A DNA stretch of 36,348 nt from contig JAHBMJ010005506.1 in NCBI GenBank assembly GCA_018398765.1, forward strand, positions 1 through 36,348, written 5' to 3'. Source of the stretch: Chromera velia. Lineage: Eukaryota; Sar; Chromeraceae. Of the stretch, positions 895 through 36,264 are shown one piece after another. The notes under the pieces are model-generated. The model saw only the letters and a list, made by a program, of their open reading frames with translations. It was not told where the DNA came from and did no database searches. Position numbers and translations under genes: made by a program. Position 1 is the stretch's first letter, and the number at the start of each line of letters is the position of its first letter.

Positions 895-3800
895 CTATGC
901 GTCATCCCTGCCTGTGTCGGTCACGTTAAACAGTCCTCCGAAGTCCTGTCCAGCAAACAGAGTAGCGAGGGGAGACGGCGACGGTGCAGTGAGGGACGAT
1001 TCCTCGACGGTGGAGGAGAGGGCCCCGACAGAGAGAGAGCCATGATCCGGAGTCTGACAGCCTCGTCCCGGTCGATTCGGATCCCCTCCCTCTCTAGAGT
1101 CTCTCCTCATCTCCCCTCTTTCCATTTCCTCCAGAGAATGGACGTGGCCGAGCTCCTCGACGAGAAGACGGGCCACACGGTTGTACCATTTCTCGTTGGG
1201 AAGACAATCCGCCTCGAAGGAAGAAAATTCTGCAATCGATCGATCAGTGTCGTCATGAGCTAGGTCATGAGTTTCTTTACGTGAGCCAGACTTGCATGCT
1301 CACATCATTCCTCATACCTCCCCCCTGTGCGTTGCTGCGTCTTCTCAGGCTTTCTCTCTCTGGTCTCCTCTCCATTCAGGAATTATGCGTCACCCTCATT
1401 GCAAGTGAAAGACGCCTATCGTAAAGAAAGCCTAGTCATTTGAATGACGGAAAGATACCCTTTCGTCGTCTTCCTCGTTCATCTAACTTCATGTCTATGC
1501 GTACATGACTCTACCTCGAGGGATGCCTGTCAAAAGGGAAGAGGTACACCAGAAAGCCTTCCTTTCCATCCCCTTATATTAATTTGTCTTGTCATCAGTA
1601 CTCACCATAAGCTATGCCCTCAGCCTCCAGAAAGTCCTGCCACCAGAGGCTGTGGCCGTACGGAACGTCCTGCAGCCAGGCAGGGAGGCAGGGAGGGAGG
1701 GAGGCAGAAGGTGCATCACAAGACAGCAAGACAGTTAGTGAGTAGTACCACGGCAATGGAGGGGCACAGAGGTACTGCAAGAAAGGTGAGAGAGACCTAG
1801 GAGAGCCTGAAGGATTCACTCGCCAACCAAAAAAAGGGACGTCATGTACTTGCCAGTGAAAACTCTAAATGTACCTTTGAAAACAGACACATTCCAAAGA
1901 AGACCTTCAGGAACCCCAAACGCTCCGCCCGCTCCCCGTCACATCTCCTCAGGCCATCCACCATCTGCTCCCGCATGGAGAAGGCACCGCCCCACACATC
2001 TGCACGATAGGACAAGCAATTTCGGTCACCAAGATTAGATTATGGATGAAATACAATACAGCATCTGTGTGAAAGACACCCCACTGCAGTCTTCTGAGCA
2101 GGCCAACTGACGGTCGGATATGCGACCGAGGACACAGAAGACTTCCCTGCATGTATTGATGTAGACGGCACCTATAATTCTAGTTTGCTTCCTCTACAGT
2201 GCCACCAATGACTTTCGTCTGTGCAAGGATTCAAAATCGAGATTGCACAAAACACCATCGCCGTTTCAAAAAGTACGCTCTCCTCAGAACTGCGCGACCT
2301 ATCGACATGCATATTGACTGACTGACGTAGAGCAAGAGGAGGGTGCGGCATGTGGAAGGCGAGGTCCACCGCAGCAGTCATTCCTGCATGCACACAGGGA
2401 TGGAGACGCGTGGGTACATCAATCAAAATTGCATTGTAGGAGTGTGTAGGCATGCAAAAGCTCTAGCAGGAAGTCTTCGTGGCGGTCAATCATCGTGCAA
2501 TCCATTTCTTCTTCTAGCGCGGCCTCAGGAGACGCGAGGACCTTGCAAGAACAAGAATAGCGGCGATGTGCAGGCAGGGAGGGGAAGAAGCATCACTTTG
2601 ATGCCCTTTTCTCTTCGCAATTGAAGAAACCCCATCCACCCACCTTGAGTTGCCCCGCACATAATGAGGGAGTCGCAGTCGAGTTTGAACTTCCTGAGGG
2701 ACTCCTCCACAACTTCCTCAAGGATCTCCCGGTGGTGGGGCCAATCTGCAGCATCGGAATCATTTGAGCTTGCGTTTATTTTCATACAGAGAATGAATTA
2801 ATCATTACATACGTATATATACATACATAAAATAAACGCAGGGGCCAATCTGCAGCATCAGAATCATTTGAGCTGAGCGTAGAGGAAGGGGGAGAGATGG
2901 GTAAGACGGAGCTGCATTAACATTCTTCCCCACTTTGTCTCTCACGAGAGACTGCTCACTCTCTCCCTGCTGCGCTCTAGTTTACATCTGCTCTCTCTTT
3001 CAATCGCTTTAATTACTTCGTTTCTCCTTCCAGCACATTTCATTCACTTCTCTTCCAAGAGCTACCCACCAGGGGGACTCCAGTCTCTCATCTTTTTGCA
3101 TCTCCCTGTTTTGAAGTCTCCGTCTGCCCCTCTCCCCGGCCCCTCACTGTACAGTCCCATCTCGTCACTGCACCAGGCAAAACCGTCAGGCTCGTCTGGT
3201 TGTCCATGCTGCTTTGAGCTGCTGCTGTTTGCCTTCGTGCGAACGGAGACGGGGCCTCGGGGAGACACAACCGCCAGGCGAAGATTGGCACGTGAGGCGG
3301 CAGCCAAATACGGCACTGCACAAACGATTTAGGACATAAAGAGAAAGGTTGTCTGTGAAAAAAAAAGGAGGAAGTCCTGTACGTGCATGTTCCAAAGAGT
3401 TTGCTGAATGTGATGATGCGAAAGTTGTGCTCTTTTAGGCAAGACACACAAAGAAGCCGAGAGTCAATGGGCCAGGTATCAAAATAGAAACATCGTTGGC
3501 AGGGTACACCTCGGCGATTTTATGGGGGTCTGCATAGTGAGTGAGTGTGGCGGCCTGGAGTCAAGGATATTGCATCCCGAGATGGCATTGGTGAGTGCAT
3601 TGTGTGCAGGTCTAAGAAATGAAAGAAGACTGACTGGTCAGAGGTCTGTTGGTCTCTGGACTCTGACCGTAACCGTGGAGGGACACAACTGCAGGGATCA
3701 GATTGATGACGCACCTCTTGAATGTTTGACGAGAGAGGAGAAAGGGAAAAGGAAGAATAGAGACGGGGAAGAAAATCAGAAGAAACCTCCGTGCCCCTCG

Positions 3801-6800
3801 TTTCCCTCTGGAAACAGTCAGTGTGGGCTGCTCTATCGAATCACATTGGTCATGATCAAACAAGAACACGTAGGGTCGATGCACAGAGTGGTGTCCGCAT
3901 AAGTTTCCGTAGTGTCATCTTACTCTCATTCACTGACCGAGCGCCTGTGGGTCCTTTCCGTTCGACGTGACAAGACAGTCCAGACCCCCAATATTCTCCC
4001 AGGCATCTGTGAGTCGGGTCTCCTTGGGCAGGTAGGGGTGCCAGAAGCCCTCGAAAATTCCCTCCGTTCTTTCGGAGGTGGAAGAAAAAGAGAAAGAAGG
4101 GTTGGAGGGCATGGGAGGGAACAGAAGAGCCCCAGAGGCTCTTTGAGGAGAAGTTGAAGAAGAAGCAGAAGGGGCAGAAATCGACCCTGACCTCCCACTC
4201 GTACTCACAACAGCCGGGCTCCTAGGTGATCTCTGTTGTTTCCCTCCCCCTCCCCTCCCTTCTTCCCCTTGTTCGTTGAATTCAGACAGAAAGGCAGGCA
4301 CACGCCAAAGGGATGGCAAGAACCTCTTCCACCTGACTGGCTGAATCCCTAGTGCACATGGCATGATCTGAGCAGATGGAGAAGGAGACAAAAGGTTTCG
4401 AAGAATTCCCAACCCCACGTCTGTCTTCATAGAGGCCAACCCCGCCCTCCGTCTCCTCTCAGCCCCCCCCCCCAATGCCCACAGGGTATCATCCAACAGT
4501 CCCATCTGGAGAGCGTGACTGTGGAGACCGAGGGAACGGCGGAAGTCCGCAAGGCCCTCGAGGGCTGATGCAGCCGCTGCACCACAGACGGACCCCTCAA
4601 GGCTGAGAAGGGATGAGACGGCAGAGACGGAGATGAAGGAAGCAGAGGAACTGCAGGAGTTGTGGATGTTCACTGCCGAGTGGACCTGCATGCAGGCGTG
4701 AATTCGAACAGAAAACAAACAAAAATTAAGGAAAAGACGAACATTGTAACGGAACGCCGTTTTGAATTTTACAGCCCTGGAACTTCGACCTTTTGTGCAT
4801 CAGAATGCATCAATTTCATGAGGGCTGGATGAGCAGATAGTCAGATCCACAGCTAGATGCACCCAACAAAACACACAGAACAGATGACCGCCGGGACAGT
4901 GGGTGGGTATCTGCGAACATCAGCAAATGGGGGATTTTTCTGCTTGCCTATCCATGAATATAGACAGACCCGTTGCAAGTATGCTTCTGACACCGAGGCT
5001 GCCGATTCATCGAACAGCGTCTCCTCGGATGGCAGTACTCCCTCCATATGGAGCACACCCGCAACGTCAGTCAGAAGAGTTCGATTCAATCGTTGAAACA
5101 TGGCGGCACACGACGGCCTGTCTCCAAGTATACAGGCCACAGACACGACTCTTCTCTCCTTCGTGTCCCAATCCATCAAAGTGGACAGACGCTTCCAGAT
5201 CTCCAGTTCCCTCGTTGCCTCTGAGGGCAGACCTTCCCTAGAGACCAGCACAACCTGATCTGCCGCCTGGGAGAGGAGCCACTCAGCTGTCAGAAGACCC
5301 GGTCTGCTGTGACCTCCAGAAATTAGAAACGCGCCCTCAAGGGATGCGGAAGCCTTTTCTTCTTCTTCTTTCTTCATTTCTCTCAATCGGAGTCTAGGCA
5401 CGTAAATTCCGTCTCTTCTGACCACCATCTCCAGCTCTTTCTGTGCCCCCCCCTCCCCTCCCCCCAGCATTGCTGTAAGGGCTCGCGAGACGCCCTCAAC
5501 AACTGGAAGGGAACTGTCGAGGTCTGCCCACCCCACAGAGGATCCTCCTTCTTTGCTCTGCTGCTGGCGGCCAAGCATGGGCGTCAGCACTCGAGCAGCC
5601 CCGGAAAGGCCTCTGTGGAGATACCTGTCCGGACTGAACCCAGGCATGTCCCCCTCGACAGAGACTGCCCCTCTTGTAACGAGCCATACTGCCTCTCCCT
5701 TCTGCTTCTTGCCATCTTCTTTTCGAAGAGCCAATGACTGCACAAGATTGAGAGCGTCACTGACAGGACGCTCCACACTCGAGGCCCACCCTTGGTCGGA
5801 CTCACACAGTGCACCCAGACACACAATCACTCTGTTATCTTCCGTTCTTTCAGACCCCTTTTGACTGATTCGCAGCTGACTGGAGAGGTCTGCTGTGGTG
5901 GTGAGCTGCGACTCTGGGAACCTCTCCCGGATTCCCTCTTCCATTTCATCTGGTACGTCGACGAAGACGAGAGATGGGAAGCGAGGGGGCGGATTTTCCG
6001 TGTGCTCAGTAAGGTCTGCACTTGAAACTTTTCGTTTCCACTCAACCTCCCAGACAGGGACCCCGGCATCTTCCGGGGCCTCCTGCACCCCCCCCTCTGA
6101 ATCAGAATCGGCAATTTTCCCTTCTGCAGACGAGACGGGCAGACTTGGGCGGGGGGGAGTCCAGGGAAAGGATTTTGCGTTTTGTCTCCATCCATACGGA
6201 GGCTTCACGGAGGGTTTCTCTCCTCTGAACAAAGTGCGAGCAGACTGAACAATCACATGGCCGTTCGCACCTCCAAACCCAAAGGATGACACACCACACG
6301 AGAGCACAGAGGTGCCTGGAGTAGGTTTCAAGGCCACCTTCTTCAACACAGGATAAAGACTTCCCCTTTTGAAGTCCACATTTGGATGGGGACTCTGAAA
6401 CCCCAACAGGGGTGGCACTGTCTCGTGCAGCATCATCAAGACTGTACTGATCACCCCTGACAAACCCGCAGCTGCTCCCTGATGTCCGAACACACTCTTG
6501 ACAGAATGCAACAGCAGAGGCGTTTCTCTCTTTACAGCATCAGGGGCGAACACTCTACCTGCCGCACACACTTCTGCAGACTCCCATGAAGGTTCGCCTG
6601 CCCCATGGCATTGGAGCAGTGCAATGTCTGAAGGAAGGAGGCGTGCGTCAACTAGGGCCAAGGTCAGAAGCTCTTCTAAAGCCTCTGCATTCGGCACATT
6701 TACTGCCCCCCCATCCCCCCCGTGATTCACCGACGACCCCACGAGATAAGCAAGGGGCCTCACTCCTCCACCTTCCCCTTCCACCCACGACCCCCCTCCC

Positions 6801-9800
6801 TCCTCCGACGCCCCCAGTACTAGAGCAGAGACCCCCTCTGAACGGACGAAACCGTCAGACTGGGAGTCAAAAGGCTTTGTGCGGCCGTCTGGGGCAAGCA
6901 TTCGGGCCTTGCAGAAGGCTACAGTCAGGGAAGGATCAAGGATCAACTGCACACCCAGAGCCACGGACAGACAAGACTGCCCACGCACAATCGTTTGACG
7001 CGCAAGATCGAGCGCCAGAAGCGACGACGAGCACGCAGAATCGACTGTGAAAGAGGGGCCGCGAGTCCCCAGCGCATAGGAGATGCGGTTGGAGACCATC
7101 GCGTTGGCTTGGGCTGCTACTGTGTACTCCTTAGCAATTTTCGGAGACGATCGGACACGGGCCCAGTCATTGGTGCTGGTTGCTGATATGACAGACAAAT
7201 CGGTGCCTTTCAGCGTGTTCTTGTCTTCCCCTGCTTGCGTGAGGGCCTCAAACACAGTCTCAAGGCCGAGGCGCTGCTGAGGGTCCATCTCTCTGGCCTC
7301 TGAATCGCCGATGCGGAAGGCCTTGTTGTCGAACATGTGCGCCTCCTCGATGAAGCCTCCCCTATGGACATACACCTTTCCGGAGGCATCCTGGTCGGGG
7401 CTGAAGAAGTCCTCCAGCGCCCACCGATCTGGGGGGATCTCTCTGATGGCGTCCTTCCCCGAGCACAGAACCTCCCACAGCGATTCCATCGAAGTCACAC
7501 CCCCAGGGAACCGCACCGCCATACCCAGAATCGGTATCCGTCTGCTGTCTTCCGACTGTCGCAACACCTTCGTGAGACGAGTGCTGTCTACCCGTTTCGC
7601 AACAAATCGGGCAATCTTCAGCACGTTGGGGCAGTCAATCAGGTCTGACACACTCACGTCGATCTGCAGGAACAAGAACAGACAGAAACACATTCAGGGG
7701 CAGAAGAAGAAAGAAGAAAAAGATAAACGAAGAGGAGAGCTGACAGAAAAGACATTCCAGAAAGTAGACTGGTGACAGGGCTTTCGTTCATTGCATCTAA
7801 AAAGGAACAAAAGAAAGCAGCCAATCACAGTAGCCAATTACACTCCCTAAGTCAGGCTGTCCAACCCCTCTGTTTCGTCCCCGTCTCCCCTGCCCACCCA
7901 CCCACCCTGAATGTAGATGCGAGTGAGGCTGCGACCATCTGCAGGTCCAGGCTGTCCAGCCCCATCTCCATGAGGGAGACGGAGAAGTCCTGCAAGCTGG
8001 CGGAGACGGAGACGGAACCGCTGCCCCCGAGTCGGGACGCAGGTGCGAGGGTGGAGAGGGAAGTGGAGGCACTGATGTGCACCACCCTCGCCACCTTATG
8101 GCAAAGAGCCTCTGACGGTTTCACTGCCTCCTCCTCTTCTTCTTCTTCCAGATTGGACTGAGACCTCGACAGACAGAACGAGTATCTCTTCTCAGGGGGG
8201 GAAGTACGGGCTCTCAAAGGAAGGACGGGGGGAGTCTGCACGAGGAGGCCGATGGTGTCGTCACTGCGAAGGGCCCTCTCCTCTGTCTCAGCCTCGGCAC
8301 TGTGCAGTGAAAGAAGAGGAAAGAACGCAACAGATCGTCTTCAAACACATACACACATAAGGTCCTCAAAAGACACAGCTACGAGCACAAAAATGGAGTG
8401 AGCGAGAACGAATCTTGGAAGTCAGGCACAAGGGATTCTTAAGTGTTGTGGTTGACGGCGGGACGCAAGATACTCTTCAGGAGACCCGAAAACGACTTTC
8501 AAGTTTGAGCAAGAACTGACTACGTCTTCAGAAAACGTGATCACTCGAAATTGAATTTCTGTTCTGCTGAGAGAGACGAAGTCATTTTGAAACCATGCAC
8601 ATCACCTTCTCGCGTCTGTGAGAGTCAGAGGGAACAGACGCCACAATCTGTACATGCACAGAAAAGCCATGACAGATCCCATATCATCGATGCACAATGA
8701 AATACGTGCAACGGAATTTGAAAGAACAGAACACACTCGCACCTTGACAGCCATAACAGAAAGACAGACAAAAACACTGCTGACTCATCCTCCATCCGAC
8801 ACGGCAAGCAAGCAGGGCTGACTACCCAGAATACTTGTGCAGATGGAGCGGCCCAAAATCCGCAGAGCACCACAGCAACCAAGCAGCAATCTGGAGCATC
8901 ACCTCCAAGTCCCCACACTAGTCGAGCGACACTCGTGCAGACGGACCAAAACAAAACAAAAAAGCAGAGAGAAAGAAAAAGACACCCCGCTGCCCACGGC
9001 CGCAGCAACCAAGCAGCAATGTGGAGCATCACCTCCAAGTCCCCACACTAGTCGAGCGACACACGGGCTGCTGGGAGAAGAAAGAAAAGAAACACACTCA
9101 CAAACACAAAAAAAAAAGGCTGCCAAGGAAACGGAACATTCTTGCCTTGCCTTCAAACCAGCTGTGTATACACAATCACACGAGTGGTTGGACGGCACAA
9201 GGCGTTCAAACGCAAATCTACAACCCGTACTCATCGGGCACTTGGACCAACCTGAGCAAAAGCATGTATGACTGACTGTTTGTCCTTCAGATCCCCTGCC
9301 GAGCCCCCCGGGCCTTTCGTTGGCGTGCCATGTCTGCAGCAATGGGAGAAAGAGTCCACATTGAGACACAGCTACGAGCACAAAAATGGAGTGGGAACAA
9401 TTGCAAGGGTCACAAAGATACACTGCAGGGGGCGCCACACTCAATGAAAAGTCAGGCCCAACGCACCTGTCTCTAACGGGAAGGAGGTCTCCAAGCGCAC
9501 TGCCACCTCCCACCCCTCCCCCACTGGTTTGGATCGCCCGCAGGTCGGCCAGAGCCTTCAAGTTCGGCCGCAACACCTCCACTTCCCTTCCCGCAAACCG
9601 AGAAAGAAGTGTTGCAAGTGCACTCACAAATGACCTCTGCCCCCCCAGTCCAAGGTCCAAAAGTCGGAAGTGCTGCTTTTTCATCTCACTGCTCCCTCCA
9701 CCCTCCGTCCCTCTGTCCACCTCAACTCCTAGGTCCGAGCTAACAACTGATGCCCTTCTGCTGAAAAGCACATTTCCTTCAACGCTACCGACAGACACGA

Positions 9801-11404
9801 CGCTTCCTCTGCAAGCAAAAGGAGGGGGTTCGGTTGGTTGGCAATTGGACAGCAGGCTCAAAGAGAGTCTGCGAGAGACCTGACGGCCCACCACCAATTT
9901 CCTCGCAACCAGAGGAAGGTCCCCTCTCTGCACACACGTCGCCTGAAGAAGCGCTTCGACAAGGGGAGGACAATCTGCACCCCTGCAGGTGAGAGCAGTG
10001 CCGTCAACGGGAAAGATCACCCGCATAGCCAGGCGGTCATACTGCAGATGCTCGCCTACCCCCGCTCGCTGGCAGTCCTGGAGGATTGTCTCGACTGCCG
10101 GTTGCATTGCTGAGTGGTGACAGGGGGCAGAGACTTTCAGGAAACTGGTCATGCCCCCCCCCGCTACTGAGATGCCGCAATCGGACAAGACACTTTGAAG
10201 ACTCGCCCTCCTTCCTGCGATTTTGTGTTGCAGACGGACTCTCAGACTGGCGAGGAGGGAGGGAGGGCCAGCTACAGCCACTGCACGCTGTCCGTTGATC
10301 AGAGCAATCTCAAGGAAGAAGTCTTCCTTCGGTTTTTGCAAGACGTCCACTGCCCGGGTAGCAGTAGTCTTCCGAGGTAGCGAATGAATGGTTAGAGAAG
10401 GGGAGGACACGCTGACAAACTCCGGTCTCAATGATTCGCGTGCAGCATCGTTGACGTGACACACGTGCGCATACACCTCGACGACACGAAGACCTTTCAC
10501 AAGCATCATCGACGTCGTCTCTGTCTGCGCGTGCATGTGCTCGACTGCAACCTCTTCAGTGTCCCTGTGAGCAGCGTAAGGGTCACCCAGGGCTTCTGCA
10601 CGCTGCTGCAGACGGACTCCCATCCAGAACGAAAGGATCACAACCTCAGATGCCACCGGGAGGAGAGAACTGGACAACGTCTCAACATCGGACGAAGACT
10701 CAGAAGACGATCTACGGGCAAGCCATTCCCGAATGCAGGTAGTCATCACTGCTGCCCCGGCTGCAGAGACGACCCCCTGAGAGTGTCCAATGGCTCCCGA
10801 TATCTGGTCAAACAAAGAGGCCGCAGGGGCAGGAGGCGTGTGCTCACTTGCACCCTCGGCCGCTGCCAGAGCTAGGTACGCTATGTTCAAGCATTGTCCA
10901 ATGGCGATGCCCGGAAAAGAAAAAGGGGCCCGCCAGGTGTGTGAGCGCCAGGTTGGGCCTTGGCTCTCTTCATCAGACTTTCTGTTTGTCTGACCTTCGG
11001 AGAGACTAGAGAGAAAGTTGCTCCCTGCGTCTTCCGGGAAGAGTTTTTCTCTTTCCTCGGGAGTCAGTCGGTCCTGCTGGTCCTGTACAACCTTCCTCAG
11101 AGCATGGAAGAAGGGAAGTAGAGAGGGGGAGGAGGAGAGAAGGGCCTCCAATGAAGAGGCCCATTCAGGATCCTGCAGGTGTATGTATATATCCATTAAA
11201 CAGCTGTGCATGTGCATGTATAGAGGGAGAAGGTTGATATGCACATACATGTGCGGGATTCACAATCGTTCCCCGCGGTTAGGTACACAATCCAGCTAAG
11301 AGCCGACTTACAGCTTCTCCACACAGGAGGAGAGGGCTTGCTGGAGGGTTGGCTTTGCTAGGTTCGTCGATTTGTTGAAAGCAAAAAAGGACCTCAGTCG
11401 TCAT
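895..11404 (-). CDS. Type I polyketide/fatty-acid synthase: AT-ACP-KS-KR-esterase, 12 exons
   Basis: Exons on the minus strand: 11404-11312, 11172-9467, 8299-7906, 7663-4970, 4685-3938, 3688-3635, 3315-3070, 2745-2644, 2383-2327, 1999-1875, 1669-1606, 1229-895. Every intron is GT-AG, all phases match, and the sum is 6618 nt (2205 aa plus stop). The start is the first ATG after an in-frame stop. Domains by residue: FAS-type acetyltransferase 20-540, ACP 660-755, KS 774-1205, KR 1265-1765, acyl-protein-thioesterase-like 1840-2130. The protein should load an acyl starter and run one condensation. No malonyl-transferase, DH, ER, or ACP after the KR is visible, so an extender transferase, and perhaps a carrier, must act in trans. 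KR and esterase lack catalytic residues. The join between KR exon and esterase exons is inferred from phase (split GTT Val codon) and from alignment across the junction. Two adjacent genes is the alternative. The end at 895 is the first in-frame stop; residues past about 2130 are low complexity and less certain. The product is unknown. Confidence 0.82.
1123..4055 (-). other. Domain: acyl-protein-thioesterase/carboxylesterase-like, catalytic residues replaced
   Basis: Seven small C-terminal coding segments, joined in phase, follow the family from end to end: VVSLHGYGQSPE, PYLAAASRANLRLAVVSPRGP, EILEEVVEESL, LIMCGATQGGMTAAVDLAF, WGGAFSMREQ, LKVFFG, DVPYGHSLWWQDFLEAEGI, then YEFSSFEADCLPNE. In active members the nucleophile motif is GxSQGG; here Ser is Thr2011. 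The acid position aligns with Ser2072, and the Gly-His before LP aligns with Asp-Cys (Cys2103). All three triad positions differ, so hydrolysis by the usual mechanism is unlikely. A linker rich in Ser, Gly and Lys interrupts the domain at residues 1918-1975. It could hold substrate or serve as a docking module. Confidence 0.68.
2737..2874. repeat. 70-bp inverted-repeat insertion flanked by a 34-bp direct repeat, at a splice acceptor
   Basis: The segments 2737-2770 and 2841-2874 are direct copies with one mismatch, beginning GGGGCCAATCTGCAG. Between them lies a 70-bp segment with perfect 12-bp terminal inverted repeats (2771-2782 TGCGTTTATTTT and 2829-2840 AAAATAAACGCA). The duplicated segment carries the 3' splice site of synthase exon 8. 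Intron 7 therefore has two near-identical acceptors. Use of the upstream copy would run into a stop within the inserted DNA. Confidence 0.85.
4278..6064 (-). other. Domain: ketoreductase, probably inactive
   Basis: It begins with the structural subdomain (VPVWEVEWK, then ALNLVQSLAL, WLVTRGAVSV, WADLDSSL) directly after the KS linker, so no dehydratase lies between. The catalytic half starts with GAFLISGGHSRPG (residues 1508-1520), where the NADPH loop GGxGxxG is lost. It continues after intron 4686-4969 with SFISVSAVSSLL and GSVCGAAAAS. The Ser position is kept, but the Tyr of YAAAN is Gly1664 and its Asn is Ala1668. Downstream helices (ADFRRSLGL, GLGILRNLL, RWKRFLPSL) are retained, so the fold seems preserved without chemistry. 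Confidence 0.8.
6242..7537 (-). other. Domain: beta-ketoacyl synthase, catalytic triad intact
   Basis: This is the best-conserved part of the synthase. It opens with PILGMAVRFPGG and contains MDPQQRLGLE. The nucleophile is Cys942 in VDSACSSSL, the first His is His1084 in QCHGAGEPSW (usual form HGTGT..GDP), and the second His is His1125 in KSVFGHQGAAAG. It ends with SFGFGGANGHV. The altered residues after the first His are unusual, but the Cys-His-His triad is complete, so decarboxylative condensation should be possible. Confidence 0.92.
7592..8121 (-). other. Domain: acyl carrier protein, split by an intron
   Basis: The motif MGLDSLDLQM carries the phosphopantetheine-attachment Ser716. Helix 3, IDVSVSDLIDCPNVLKIARF, lies in the next exon across intron 7664-7905. 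The carrier follows a seven-glutamate run (residues 651-657) and a flexible Ser-rich linker. It is the only ACP found in the protein, and it sits before the KS rather than after the KR. Confidence 0.88.
8300..9466 (-). other. Long intron 2 of the synthase gene, with internal duplications
   Basis: At 1167 bp this is the gene's longest intron; most of the others are 80-330 bp, with one of 554 bp. The donor is AG/GTGCGT at 9466 and the acceptor is TGCACAG at 8301-8300. Joining gives a Ser codon split 2+1. It contains a 30-bp perfect direct repeat (8371-8400 and 9364-9393) and a near-identical pair of about 58 bp (8875-8932 and about 9005-9062). Open frames read into it from exon 2, but they lose all similarity to the family. 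Confidence 0.7.
9550..11404 (-). other. Domain: FAS-I-type acetyltransferase (starter AT) of the synthase
   Basis: The N-terminal 540 residues align in order with the acetyltransferase domain of the fungal FAS beta subunit and with SAT domains of fungal non-reducing PKSs. The start resembles the FGDQT-type segment (PLLLCGEADPEW). Next come SFPGIAIGQ, the nucleophile motif GHSQG (Ser162), a VVILSFWMGVR helix, MMLVKGL, the LINGQRAVAVAGPP segment, the catalytic His region APCHHSAM (His383/384), and the closing RLLDLGLGG. Nucleophile and His are both present, so it is probably active. SAT domains usually carry Cys in GxCxG; this one has Ser, as FAS does. It precedes the only carrier protein and so probably loads a starter acyl group onto it. 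The starter's identity cannot be read from the sequence. Confidence 0.8.
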
Positions 11405-18869: not shown

Positions 18870-20278
18870 TCACTTACGGATGGAGTTCCTTCTCTGCATG
18901 GCTGCATCTCGTGCTTCCTTTGCAAGCTTTACGGCGTTTTTCTTCTTTTGCAGCTCGCTTGAGTTCCTTTGCTTTCTTTTTTCCTGTTCCCCCCTCCTCT
19001 TCTCTCTCTCCAACGCAACGGCAGCACTGGGCCCCCGCTGTGCGACTGCGACTCGCGCGCGCTCACGCGCCTCCTTTGCTGCTTGCACTCTTCTGTGGTT
19101 TGACTCAAGGGCAAGCGAATCTCTTCTCCTTCTCTCGTCCCTCTCCTTCTTTCTCAGCTCTGTCTCCCTGACCAATACGCCACGTGACCCTCTTCGTGCC
19201 TGAACTCTGTCTCTGGCGTCTGGAGGGGGAAGGGGCAGAAGAGGACCGTCGGATTGTCCTCTGTTTTCCGGATTGGCCGCAGGACCGACCAATACTGCTG
19301 CTGCTGTCGCTTCTTCTGGGTTGTTGTGGAGAGCGTGTGGCACAGAAGGGACTGCTGCTTCTTCTTCTGTCTCCTGCTGCTGCATCTCAAATCCAGGAGG
19401 GGGACCTGCAGGCAGAGGGAGGTCTTCGGCTTGCTGAGGGATGTCTCCTCCCAGGCATCCGCAGACACACGCAGCACAGACATTCTGCAGCACTTTCGGG
19501 GGAGCTGAAGAGCACAGTGAAACGGCCGCATGACGTTGCATTCGATCCATTCCCTGGTAGGCAAAGAGGAGGTGCTTCACTCCCACCGCAAGCTGAGAGA
19601 GGACCTCGTGCTCAGTCAAACCAAACCGCTGGGTCGGAGACAGATCGACCGTGCCGTCCACTACTTCGCTTCCTTCCCCCCTGCCCCCCCTTATCTGCAG
19701 GCCTAGATCAGGGTACCACAGCGGAAGGAATGGAAGGAGAAGGGGAAGAGGGACCAGAACTGACGCACGCATCCCTGCGCCCAAATTGGTTGGGCAGGAA
19801 GTCACGTAACTGAAAGTCCCTGACTTCGCGAACGACCCCCCCCTCTCTCCAAAGACACGCTGAAGCTCTCTCTCCAACCCTGAGAGGACACCACACAGAC
19901 GCACATACAGAGACGGCAGTTCGACTGGAAGAAGATACCACCTGCACACGCAAGTGGTCCTCCTCTCCCACCCATACCCGGACGATCATATCATACGAAA
20001 TGAAGCCCCCCCGGCCTACTGGCCAATCCTTGCCGCCTGGAAGTACTGGCTGGGAGGGGGGAAGAGCACTCGTGCCTTCAGGAGGTCATCAAACTCTTCA
20101 GACTCCTCGTCCATCCGCTCAGCACGGTAGAAGCTGCTGCCTTCACAGGTAGAGAAGGCGGTGTCGACAGCGTTTAGCAAGTCACGTCTCTGCTGCTCGA
20201 TCATTCGAGCTGCATGGGAGGGGGAAGTGCGTGACATTGCGTGCCACTCGGATTCGGATGGAGAGTGGCACTCCGAAG
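18870..20278 (-). pseudogene. Phosphagen (guanidino) kinase with basic C-terminal extension; three frameshifts
   Basis: The family transfers phosphate between ATP and creatine, arginine or related guanidines. The order on the minus strand is SIRIRVARNVTHFPLP, RDLLNAVDTAF, ARVLFPPPSQYFQ, DWPVGRGGF, VWVGEEDHLRV, LYVRLCGVLSGLE, the reactive-Cys motif SCPTNLGAGMRAS, then DLSPTQRFGLTEHEV. Lengths match creatine kinase exactly only if the frame changes at about 20195-20210 (one extra base), 20030 (one base missing) and 19925 (one extra base). Apart from these shifts the key Arg, Glu and Cys residues are present. About 210 residues follow the kinase. The last 100 are Lys/Arg/Glu-rich and look like a coiled coil; no usual family member has this. 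The stop overlaps a perfect donor-like GTAAGT, so the C-terminus may continue. Recent pseudogene is my first choice; assembly indels or recoding are alternatives. Confidence 0.7.
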
Positions 20279-34601: not shown

Positions 34602-35256
34602 CTTCAGGGAAAGTGTATTGGAGTGACGCACGCAAATGAGACTTGGCAGTCACTTTCCGGGAAACACATGGGAGAAGAGTCACAAAGGTGGAAACGGGCA
34701 AAGTTGCATATACACGCAAGCGGAAGAGGCCAGGAGGAATGAGATGGAAAATCCAAATACAGAGAGTGAGGGGGTGCACAGGACGGGGAGGGAAGGAAAG
34801 TGAAAGGGAACGCGAGGAACAGACTGTACGTGCACAACTGCAAAAGGCAACCGTAGTGAATCAGTCAGCATTGGAAGCACGGAAATGGACACCGAGAGGC
34901 ACATACATGTTTTTTGTGGTAGAAGAGCCAGGGAGTGTGATCGGGTAAGTGATCAAGAATGAAGCCTACATACAGCGACACTCCGATGATGGACCGATAC
35001 GTAGAGACGCAAGCAGACGAACGGATGGGCATATGCAGACAAGTAGGCCGACCGCTGACTGACCGATAGACAAATCGACCATATGGCTTGTTTGTTTTCG
35101 TCTCTTTGTTTCACCGAGGGACAGACAAGTGACGGACCATGTGTTTGTTCTTTTTCTTCCTTTCATTCTCCTAACTCAGGTCAAAACGGACAGACCACAC
35201 AGACAGACTTTATTTTTCTTCTTCTCTCTTCTCTTCTTCATGTACAGAACAGACAA

Positions 35257-35257
35257 A

Positions 35258-35309
<52 letters not shown>

Positions 35310-35470
35310 ACAAAGACAAAGGAACAGAACAGACAGACAGACAGGCAAGCAGGCAGGCAGACAGGCAGGCAGGCAGGCAGGCAGAAGAAAACAAATAAAC
35401 AAAGAAAGAAAGAAAGAAAAAAAGCAAACACGAACGAGCAAAAGAACGAACGAACGAACGAACGAATGAC

Positions 35471-35501
<31 letters not shown>

Positions 35502-35660
35502 AGGAAAGAAGGAAAGAAGGAAAGAAGGAAAGAAGGAAAGAAGGAAAGAAGGAAGGAAGGAAGGAAGGAAGGAAGGAAAGAAAGAAAGAAAGAAATGGAG
35601 GAAAGAAATGGAGGAAGGAAGAAAGGAAGGAAGATGGAAGAAAACAGAGAAACGAGGAAA
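35257..35660. repeat. Purine-rich microsatellite block (GAAA, GACA/GGCA, AACG, AAGG)
   Basis: Successive tetranucleotide arrays: AAAG over about 35257-35309, GACA/GGCA over 35333-35386, AAAG, then AACG at about 35445-35465, then AAAG and AAGG to about 35600. The last part is almost pure purine on the plus strand. Confidence 0.95.
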
Positions 35661-36264
35661 TGAATGAACAAAGACAGACGGATTGATAGATACACAGACA
35701 GAAACCAAGAAGGAAGGACAGACAGAAAAGAAAGGGGGAAGGAAACAAATACATGGAACATAGAAAAAGAAATGAGGAAAGAAATCAAGCAAGAGAAAGA
35801 CAAAGAGAGGGAGGAAAAAGAAAGCAAACAAGTGAGGAAGGAAGGCCGGAAGGAAGGAAGAAACAAAAAAAAGACCACAAGAAACATGGTTGGAGAATCA
35901 AGCCCATATATGGAAAGACAGATAAGCAGACACTCAAGAAGAAACAGGCCGACAGAGAGTGGCGCATCAAGAACCCATGCAGCTGACAATACAGACTGCG
36001 ACTGTCAATGGAATCGAAATGAGTGAGATGGACATGAAGTGCGACAGCCATCCCGCCTGTCCAACTCGCCGCTGAATCAGTACACATACTTACGGGCAGG
36101 AACGCATACAAAGATATGGACTGCCTGGCACAGAGAGAAAAACAGACACACGGGCATGCCGAGAGACAGAGAAGCCGAAAGAAGAAAGCAGCACAGAAAC
36201 TGCGTCTCTGAATGTATGCAGATGTCGCACGGCCACTCACAGACGCCCATACACCACACATACA

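Follow-up and report, generated by a model that had tools for sequence, protein, structure and literature searches.

A candidate reworked loading module headed by a FAS-I-type acyltransferase in Chromera velia

A gene on the minus strand of a Chromera velia contig is predicted to encode a single protein in which a FAS-I-type acyltransferase (AT) is followed by an ACP, a KS, a KR and an esterase-like end. The reading that we favour, and to which we give an about even chance, is that the gene encodes a reworked version of the alveolate type-I FAS/PKS loading module, which would prime or relay acyl chains without a full in-cis extension-reduction-release cycle. We favour it because, in the predicted protein, the KS falls among those found after an acyl ligase (AL) and an ACP, and the FAS-I-type AT occupies the acyl ligase position.

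Gene model and exon structure

The window, that is, the whole stretch of DNA analysed, comprises positions 1-36348 (36,348 nucleotides) of the 61,297-base contig C3755, from a genome assembly of 177.8 Mb in 4040 contigs. In the splice model of the gene at 895-11404 (Table 1), 11 exons join into a predicted frame of 2161 aa with no internal stops, and all introns are GT-AG with consistent phases. A preliminary description of this DNA had proposed 12 exons with consistent phases; the phases fit and the frame is open, but the exons number 11. Its domain order, AT-ACP-KS-KR-esterase, was recovered through the KR by a Pfam scan of the joined exons (PF16073, SAT/FAS-AT, E = 2.5e-9; PP-binding PF00550, E = 5.6e-7; PF00109/PF02801, ketoacyl-synt, E = 4.9e-74; KR PF08659, E = 3.3e-19), the esterase end being weakly supported. 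Elsewhere in the window, a minus-strand ORF at 18873-19985, arginine-kinase-like, matches the ATP:guanido phosphotransferase catalytic domain (E = 2.3e-22), and a long purine-rich simple repeat with strong AT skew occupies 35000-36000.

Table 1. Features of the gene at 895-11404 on C3755 and of the FAS-I gene on contig C675
Feature	Position	Strand	Content
Exon 1	11312..11404	-	Predicted start codon (ATG) at 11404, AT N-terminus; donor GTAAGT
Exon 2	9467..11172	-	FAS-I-type acyltransferase (PF16073), GHSQG Ser162, His383, then linker
Intron 2	8300..9466	-	1167 nt, AT/ACP boundary; least supported join (consensus sites and phase only)
Exon 3	7906..8299	-	Linker and ACP, Ser716 (GLDSLD)
Exon 4	4970..7663	-	ACP end, KS, linker, KR first half
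KS within exon 4	about 7543-6233	-	Cys942, His1084, Lys1120, His1125
Exon 5	3938..4685	-	Predicted dead KR second half (Ser to Ala1651, Tyr to Gly1664), linker, esterase-like start
Exon 6	3148..3315	-	Esterase-like part; profile match
Exon 7	2644..2745	-	Esterase-like part; GATQ in place of hydrolase GFSQ
Exon 8	2327..2383	-	Esterase-like part; profile match
Exon 9	1875..1999	-	Esterase-like part; splice model; beyond the profile-matched stretch
Exon 10	1606..1669	-	Esterase-like part; Asp2030 kept, by eye; beyond the profile match
Exon 11	895..1229	-	Esterase-like end (ADC at expected GH, by eye), C-terminal tail, predicted stop at 895; beyond the profile match
C675 FAS-I pieces	about 55,500-78,400		PF16073 SAT/AT, PF08354 (Fas1-AflB-like helical), MaoC, acyltransferase, Fas_alpha_ACP, FAS_I_H, KS

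Splicing completes both the ACP and the KR, because their Pfam scores go up once the exons are joined. The open frame of exon 3 alone matched no Pfam family at E 0.1, and joining it to exon 4 brings an ACP match of 30.2 bits within the complete protein and 34.5 bits as a segment; the KR scores 70.0 bits across exons 4 and 5 versus 33.1 and 24.8 bits for its halves. The split of the KR is shared but not universal: in an own-genome profile search the domain is likewise divided across open frames in five contigs (C1319, C2194, C3834, C1549 and C3391), where the second part begins at profile position 111-115 (113 in the present gene), and 15 of 39 KR matches span the domain in one frame, including those of C781 and C409. 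One open exon (exon 4) runs from the KS through the first half of the KR, and a second (exon 5) from the remaining KR half into the esterase-like part. Pfam found no AT, DH, ER or ACP after the KS in either, so none is hidden there.

Intron 2 is the longest (the remaining nine are 139-622 nt) and no Pfam domain of the spliced protein spans it, as would be expected if the FAS-type AT were a gene of its own and a second gene encoded an ACP-KS-KR-esterase protein. We consider this division very unlikely, since the intron has consensus GT/AG sites in phase, no Met precedes the ACP motif in the open frame around exon 3, and an AT followed by an ACP is the expected loading order. By eye, near-identical stretches were seen within intron 2 at 8371-8400 and 9364-9393, together with a second repeated block around 8880-9060.

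The acyltransferase and the ACP

The AT is by sequence of the FAS-I/SAT type (PF16073), for which transfer of an acyl group from acyl-CoA to the ACP is predicted. It scored 37.5 bits against the Pfam cut-off of 22.8, and all 12 of its PDB matches up to E 0.033 were FAS chains (best E = 1e-5), which bears out the FAS-type AT of the preliminary description. NR-PKS chains starting with a SAT were matched in the PDB by the KS of the gene and none by its AT. The dyad Ser162 and His383 aligns with the FAS chains, the match around the Ser being weak taken alone. The ACP keeps its Ser716, and the spliced protein has no Pfam match to an AMP-binding (acyl ligase) domain.

A 17-residue stretch of the AT, of the FWMGVRLQQ type, is 53% identical to the FAS-I AT on contig C675 (E = 1e-4). 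It has a residue other than Arg there, which, by analogy with yeast FAS, would mean a non-malonyl substrate. A second piece of the C675 AT aligns weakly with the AT of the gene over 87 columns (26% identity, E = 1e-4), and the third, with GHSSG, gave no alignment to GHSQG, so that two of the three C675 AT pieces match, both weakly. The C675 locus holds a FAS-I gene of fungal/bacterial type beside modular FAS/PKS genes of this genome, and no mention of it was found in the available text of PMC7464705; it is a possible source of the AT. As an own-genome query, the AT retrieved only itself and a chance-level match with stops on contig C1470 (E = 0.27), and none of 15 pattern matches in the prokaryote collection was confirmed. 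The own-genome PF16073 search found C675 only and missed the gene at 895-11404 itself, so it is not usable as a count, and an AlphaFold2 model of the AT exon made without an alignment was unusable (mean pLDDT 34.6).

Kinship of the KS with the KS of AL-started paralogues

Own-genome searches gave 52 and 53 exon-level KS matches including the present gene, a wealth that, with the AL-type FAS/PKS genes, is in keeping with a chromerid; 36 KS genes are given in the available text of PMC7464705. In the five closest paralogues, which gave the five best matches (C608, C3391, C1319, C781 and C409), an AL, an ACP and, immediately after the ACP, a KS follow in this order on one strand; the Pfam check covered ACP and KS in C608, C3391, C1319 and C781 and the AL in C608 only, C409 being outside the scan. 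From residue 704 on, the ACP and KS of the gene align as a single block with C608, C1319, C781 and C409, and the alignment to the first KS of C3391 covers the KS only. With the AL as a query, matches were obtained on eight contigs at E 1e-20, and none on C3755 at that threshold.

The KS trees comprised 23 stretches including the present gene, split or partial KS being excluded (e.g., those after the AL of C3834 and C1753), and the outgroup consisted of 15 bacterial KS hand-picked for spread among 80 loci. The KS of the gene fell inside the AL-ACP-following group both with the outgroup (support 99/99 and 100/99) and without it (100/100 and 100/99), and the alternative topology, in which the five paralogues group without it, was disfavoured (p-AU = 0.026). 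Five of the six full-length KS that follow an AL-ACP group with it, and that of C2410 falls elsewhere. The placement is less sure because the branch of this KS is very long (2.0-2.7 changes per site). In the tree with the outgroup, a KS from a Candidatus Neptunochlamydia MAG sits among the chromerid KS, apart from the other 14 bacterial KS, which may reflect transfer or mis-binned eukaryote DNA.

Kept and altered residues of the KS

The KS keeps its Cys, His, Lys and His (Table 1), so condensation may be possible. The main rival of the loading-module reading, a real but minor possibility, is a working mini-synthase with trans-loaded malonate, whose single ACP would take a starter and then malonate from a trans-AT, whose KS would condense once or a few times, and whose beta-keto product would be released in trans. 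The kept KS residues speak for it, as do the kept ACP Ser and AT dyad; in iterative FAS, moreover, one ACP normally serves both starter and extender roles. PMC7464705 (available text) names AT-less modules as a hallmark of type-I PKS in algae, and the ACP-KS-DH exon of the paralogue C1319 is also without one. Against condensation, of the 69 positions at which the 22 other KS of the alignment are all identical, the KS of the gene departs at 23 (each other KS, left out in turn, differs at 0-9 of 69-78); of the 34 that are invariant across a wider set of 37 KS (22 own and 15 bacterial), it departs at 7. The motifs affected include HGTGT, which reads HGAGE, LGD, which reads SWE, and GHLEGAAG, whose Glu is replaced; the threonines of HGTGT contact pantetheine. 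Among the paralogues, the KS on contig C1782 has the active-site motif DTATSAS, without the catalytic Cys.

The KR and the esterase-like end

The KR appears dead, its cofactor motif and catalytic residues being lost. Compared with two full-length paralogue KRs, GGLGALG reads GGHSRPG, and Arg1629, Ala1651 and Gly1664 stand in place of the catalytic Lys, Ser and Tyr, the Ser being placed by an assumed 13-residue spacing to the Tyr. The preliminary description had called both this domain and a C-terminal esterase dead. For the KR this holds; for the esterase, a dead esterase-like fold is probable, with GATQG in place of GFSQG, but the family match is weak and without Pfam support.

The esterase-like part (residues about 1833-2085) had no relevant Pfam match, the one match being irrelevant (E = 0.21). 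Its weak NCBIfam match to RNA 2'-phosphotransferase (E = 0.008, 16.1 bits, cut-off 239) would count, if anything, against the esterase reading, and its PDB matches were to the polyphosphate kinase 2 family (E = 0.39) and LC-Est1C (E = 1.6). By hhalign, a hydrolase profile made from E. coli YpfH and ten plasmid-borne hydrolases matched it weakly over 75 columns (score 28.3, probability 14), a score reached by none of the controls (best of 100 shuffles 20.4, best of 46 control segments 20.5). This alignment places GATQG on the hydrolase GFSQG, the Ser being lost; the Ser-Asp-His triad is incomplete, with the Asp and His positions placed by eye, and the His is probably lost as well. As an own-genome query the part found only its own seven exon pieces, and an own-genome PF02230 search yielded three partial matches, none of them an intact relative of use.

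A dead KR, a probably dead esterase-like part, altered KS motifs and a very long branch could also mean that the protein is largely non-catalytic, or that the gene is becoming a pseudogene. We regard this as unlikely. All 11 exons are open with GT-AG introns despite at least two changes per KS site, and the catalytic residues of the AT, ACP and KS are retained; an entirely open frame in spite of so long a KS branch would argue for selection on the protein.

Proposed function

As a loading module, the protein would use its AT to transfer a short acyl group other than malonyl from CoA onto the neighbouring ACP, a step that would need neither free fatty acid nor ATP. From the ACP the group would then pass to the KS cysteine, and the KS would hold it or relay the chain to a partner synthase. 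A full extension-reduction-release cycle by the protein itself is not expected, because the KR is apparently dead, the esterase-like part is without its Ser and probably also without its His, neither an extender AT nor a second ACP is encoded and the KS motifs are altered. The starter or priming synthase working with a partner that had been suggested beforehand is compatible with this evidence.

A more specific version, which we put forward as doubtful, is a starter-relay megaenzyme in which a loading module would have captured a FAS-I-type AT at its head, its KS would have turned into an acyl shuttle that no longer condenses, and the folds of the dead KR and the esterase-like part would act as docking surfaces. 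Acetyl or short-acyl starters would then be fed in trans to other FAS/PKS chains, which otherwise begin with free fatty acids taken up by their AL domains. If it were true, an alga would possess a split, trans-acting loading module. A relative of CpFAS1 starting with a FAS-I-type AT would show that starter logic can be exchanged by domain swap, and the retention of dead domains makes a case for asking which part KR and hydrolase folds play in megasynthases once their catalysis is lost.

Comparison with known systems

Loading in bacterial modular PKS follows the order AT-ACP-KS, with an AT of family PF00698; the gene has the same order and differs in the AT family. In fungal non-reducing PKS (SAT-KS-AT-PT-ACP), as in the gene, a SAT-family starter transferase stands at the N-terminus of a PKS; however, the order in the gene is AT-ACP-KS-KR, and its AT matches FAS rather than NR-PKS chains in the PDB. 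With the FAS-I AT, represented by the fungal beta subunit and C675, the AT of the gene shares PF16073, GHSQG, FWxGxRxQQ and the dyad His, but it is fused to a PKS-type ACP-KS instead of the other FAS-I domains.

The closest likeness is to the CpFAS1-type loading unit of apicomplexans and chromerids. CpFAS1 is described as having three full modules and a reductase behind its AL-ACP loading unit, and its starting acyl ligase takes up free fatty acids (PMC2995488, available text). The preliminary description had held that an ACP ahead of the KS fits no known layout, and a layout wholly without parallel was dropped, since an AL-ACP unit followed by a KS occurs in the five nearest paralogues and, by the available text of PMC2995488, in CpFAS1. 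Set against known architectures, the joined protein is headed by a FAS-type AT, as had been described, but its ACP-KS order matches AL-ACP-KS loading units. In the literature searched, which included the available text of PMC7464705 and PMC4661987, we found no such module described with a FAS-type AT at its head. Of the features of a loading module, the gene has an ACP directly before the KS in one predicted chain and a KS in the AL-ACP-following group; an N-terminal AL and a downstream full extension module with its own ACP are absent. Like the CpFAS1-type unit, it has an N-terminal loading enzyme and a KS of that group immediately preceded by an ACP. What appears unusual from the predicted domains is that a FAS-I-type AT takes the place that the acyl ligase has in CpFAS1, and that most of the extension cycle is absent, the KS being followed only by an apparently dead KR and an esterase-like end, whereas CpFAS1 continues with full modules and a reductase.
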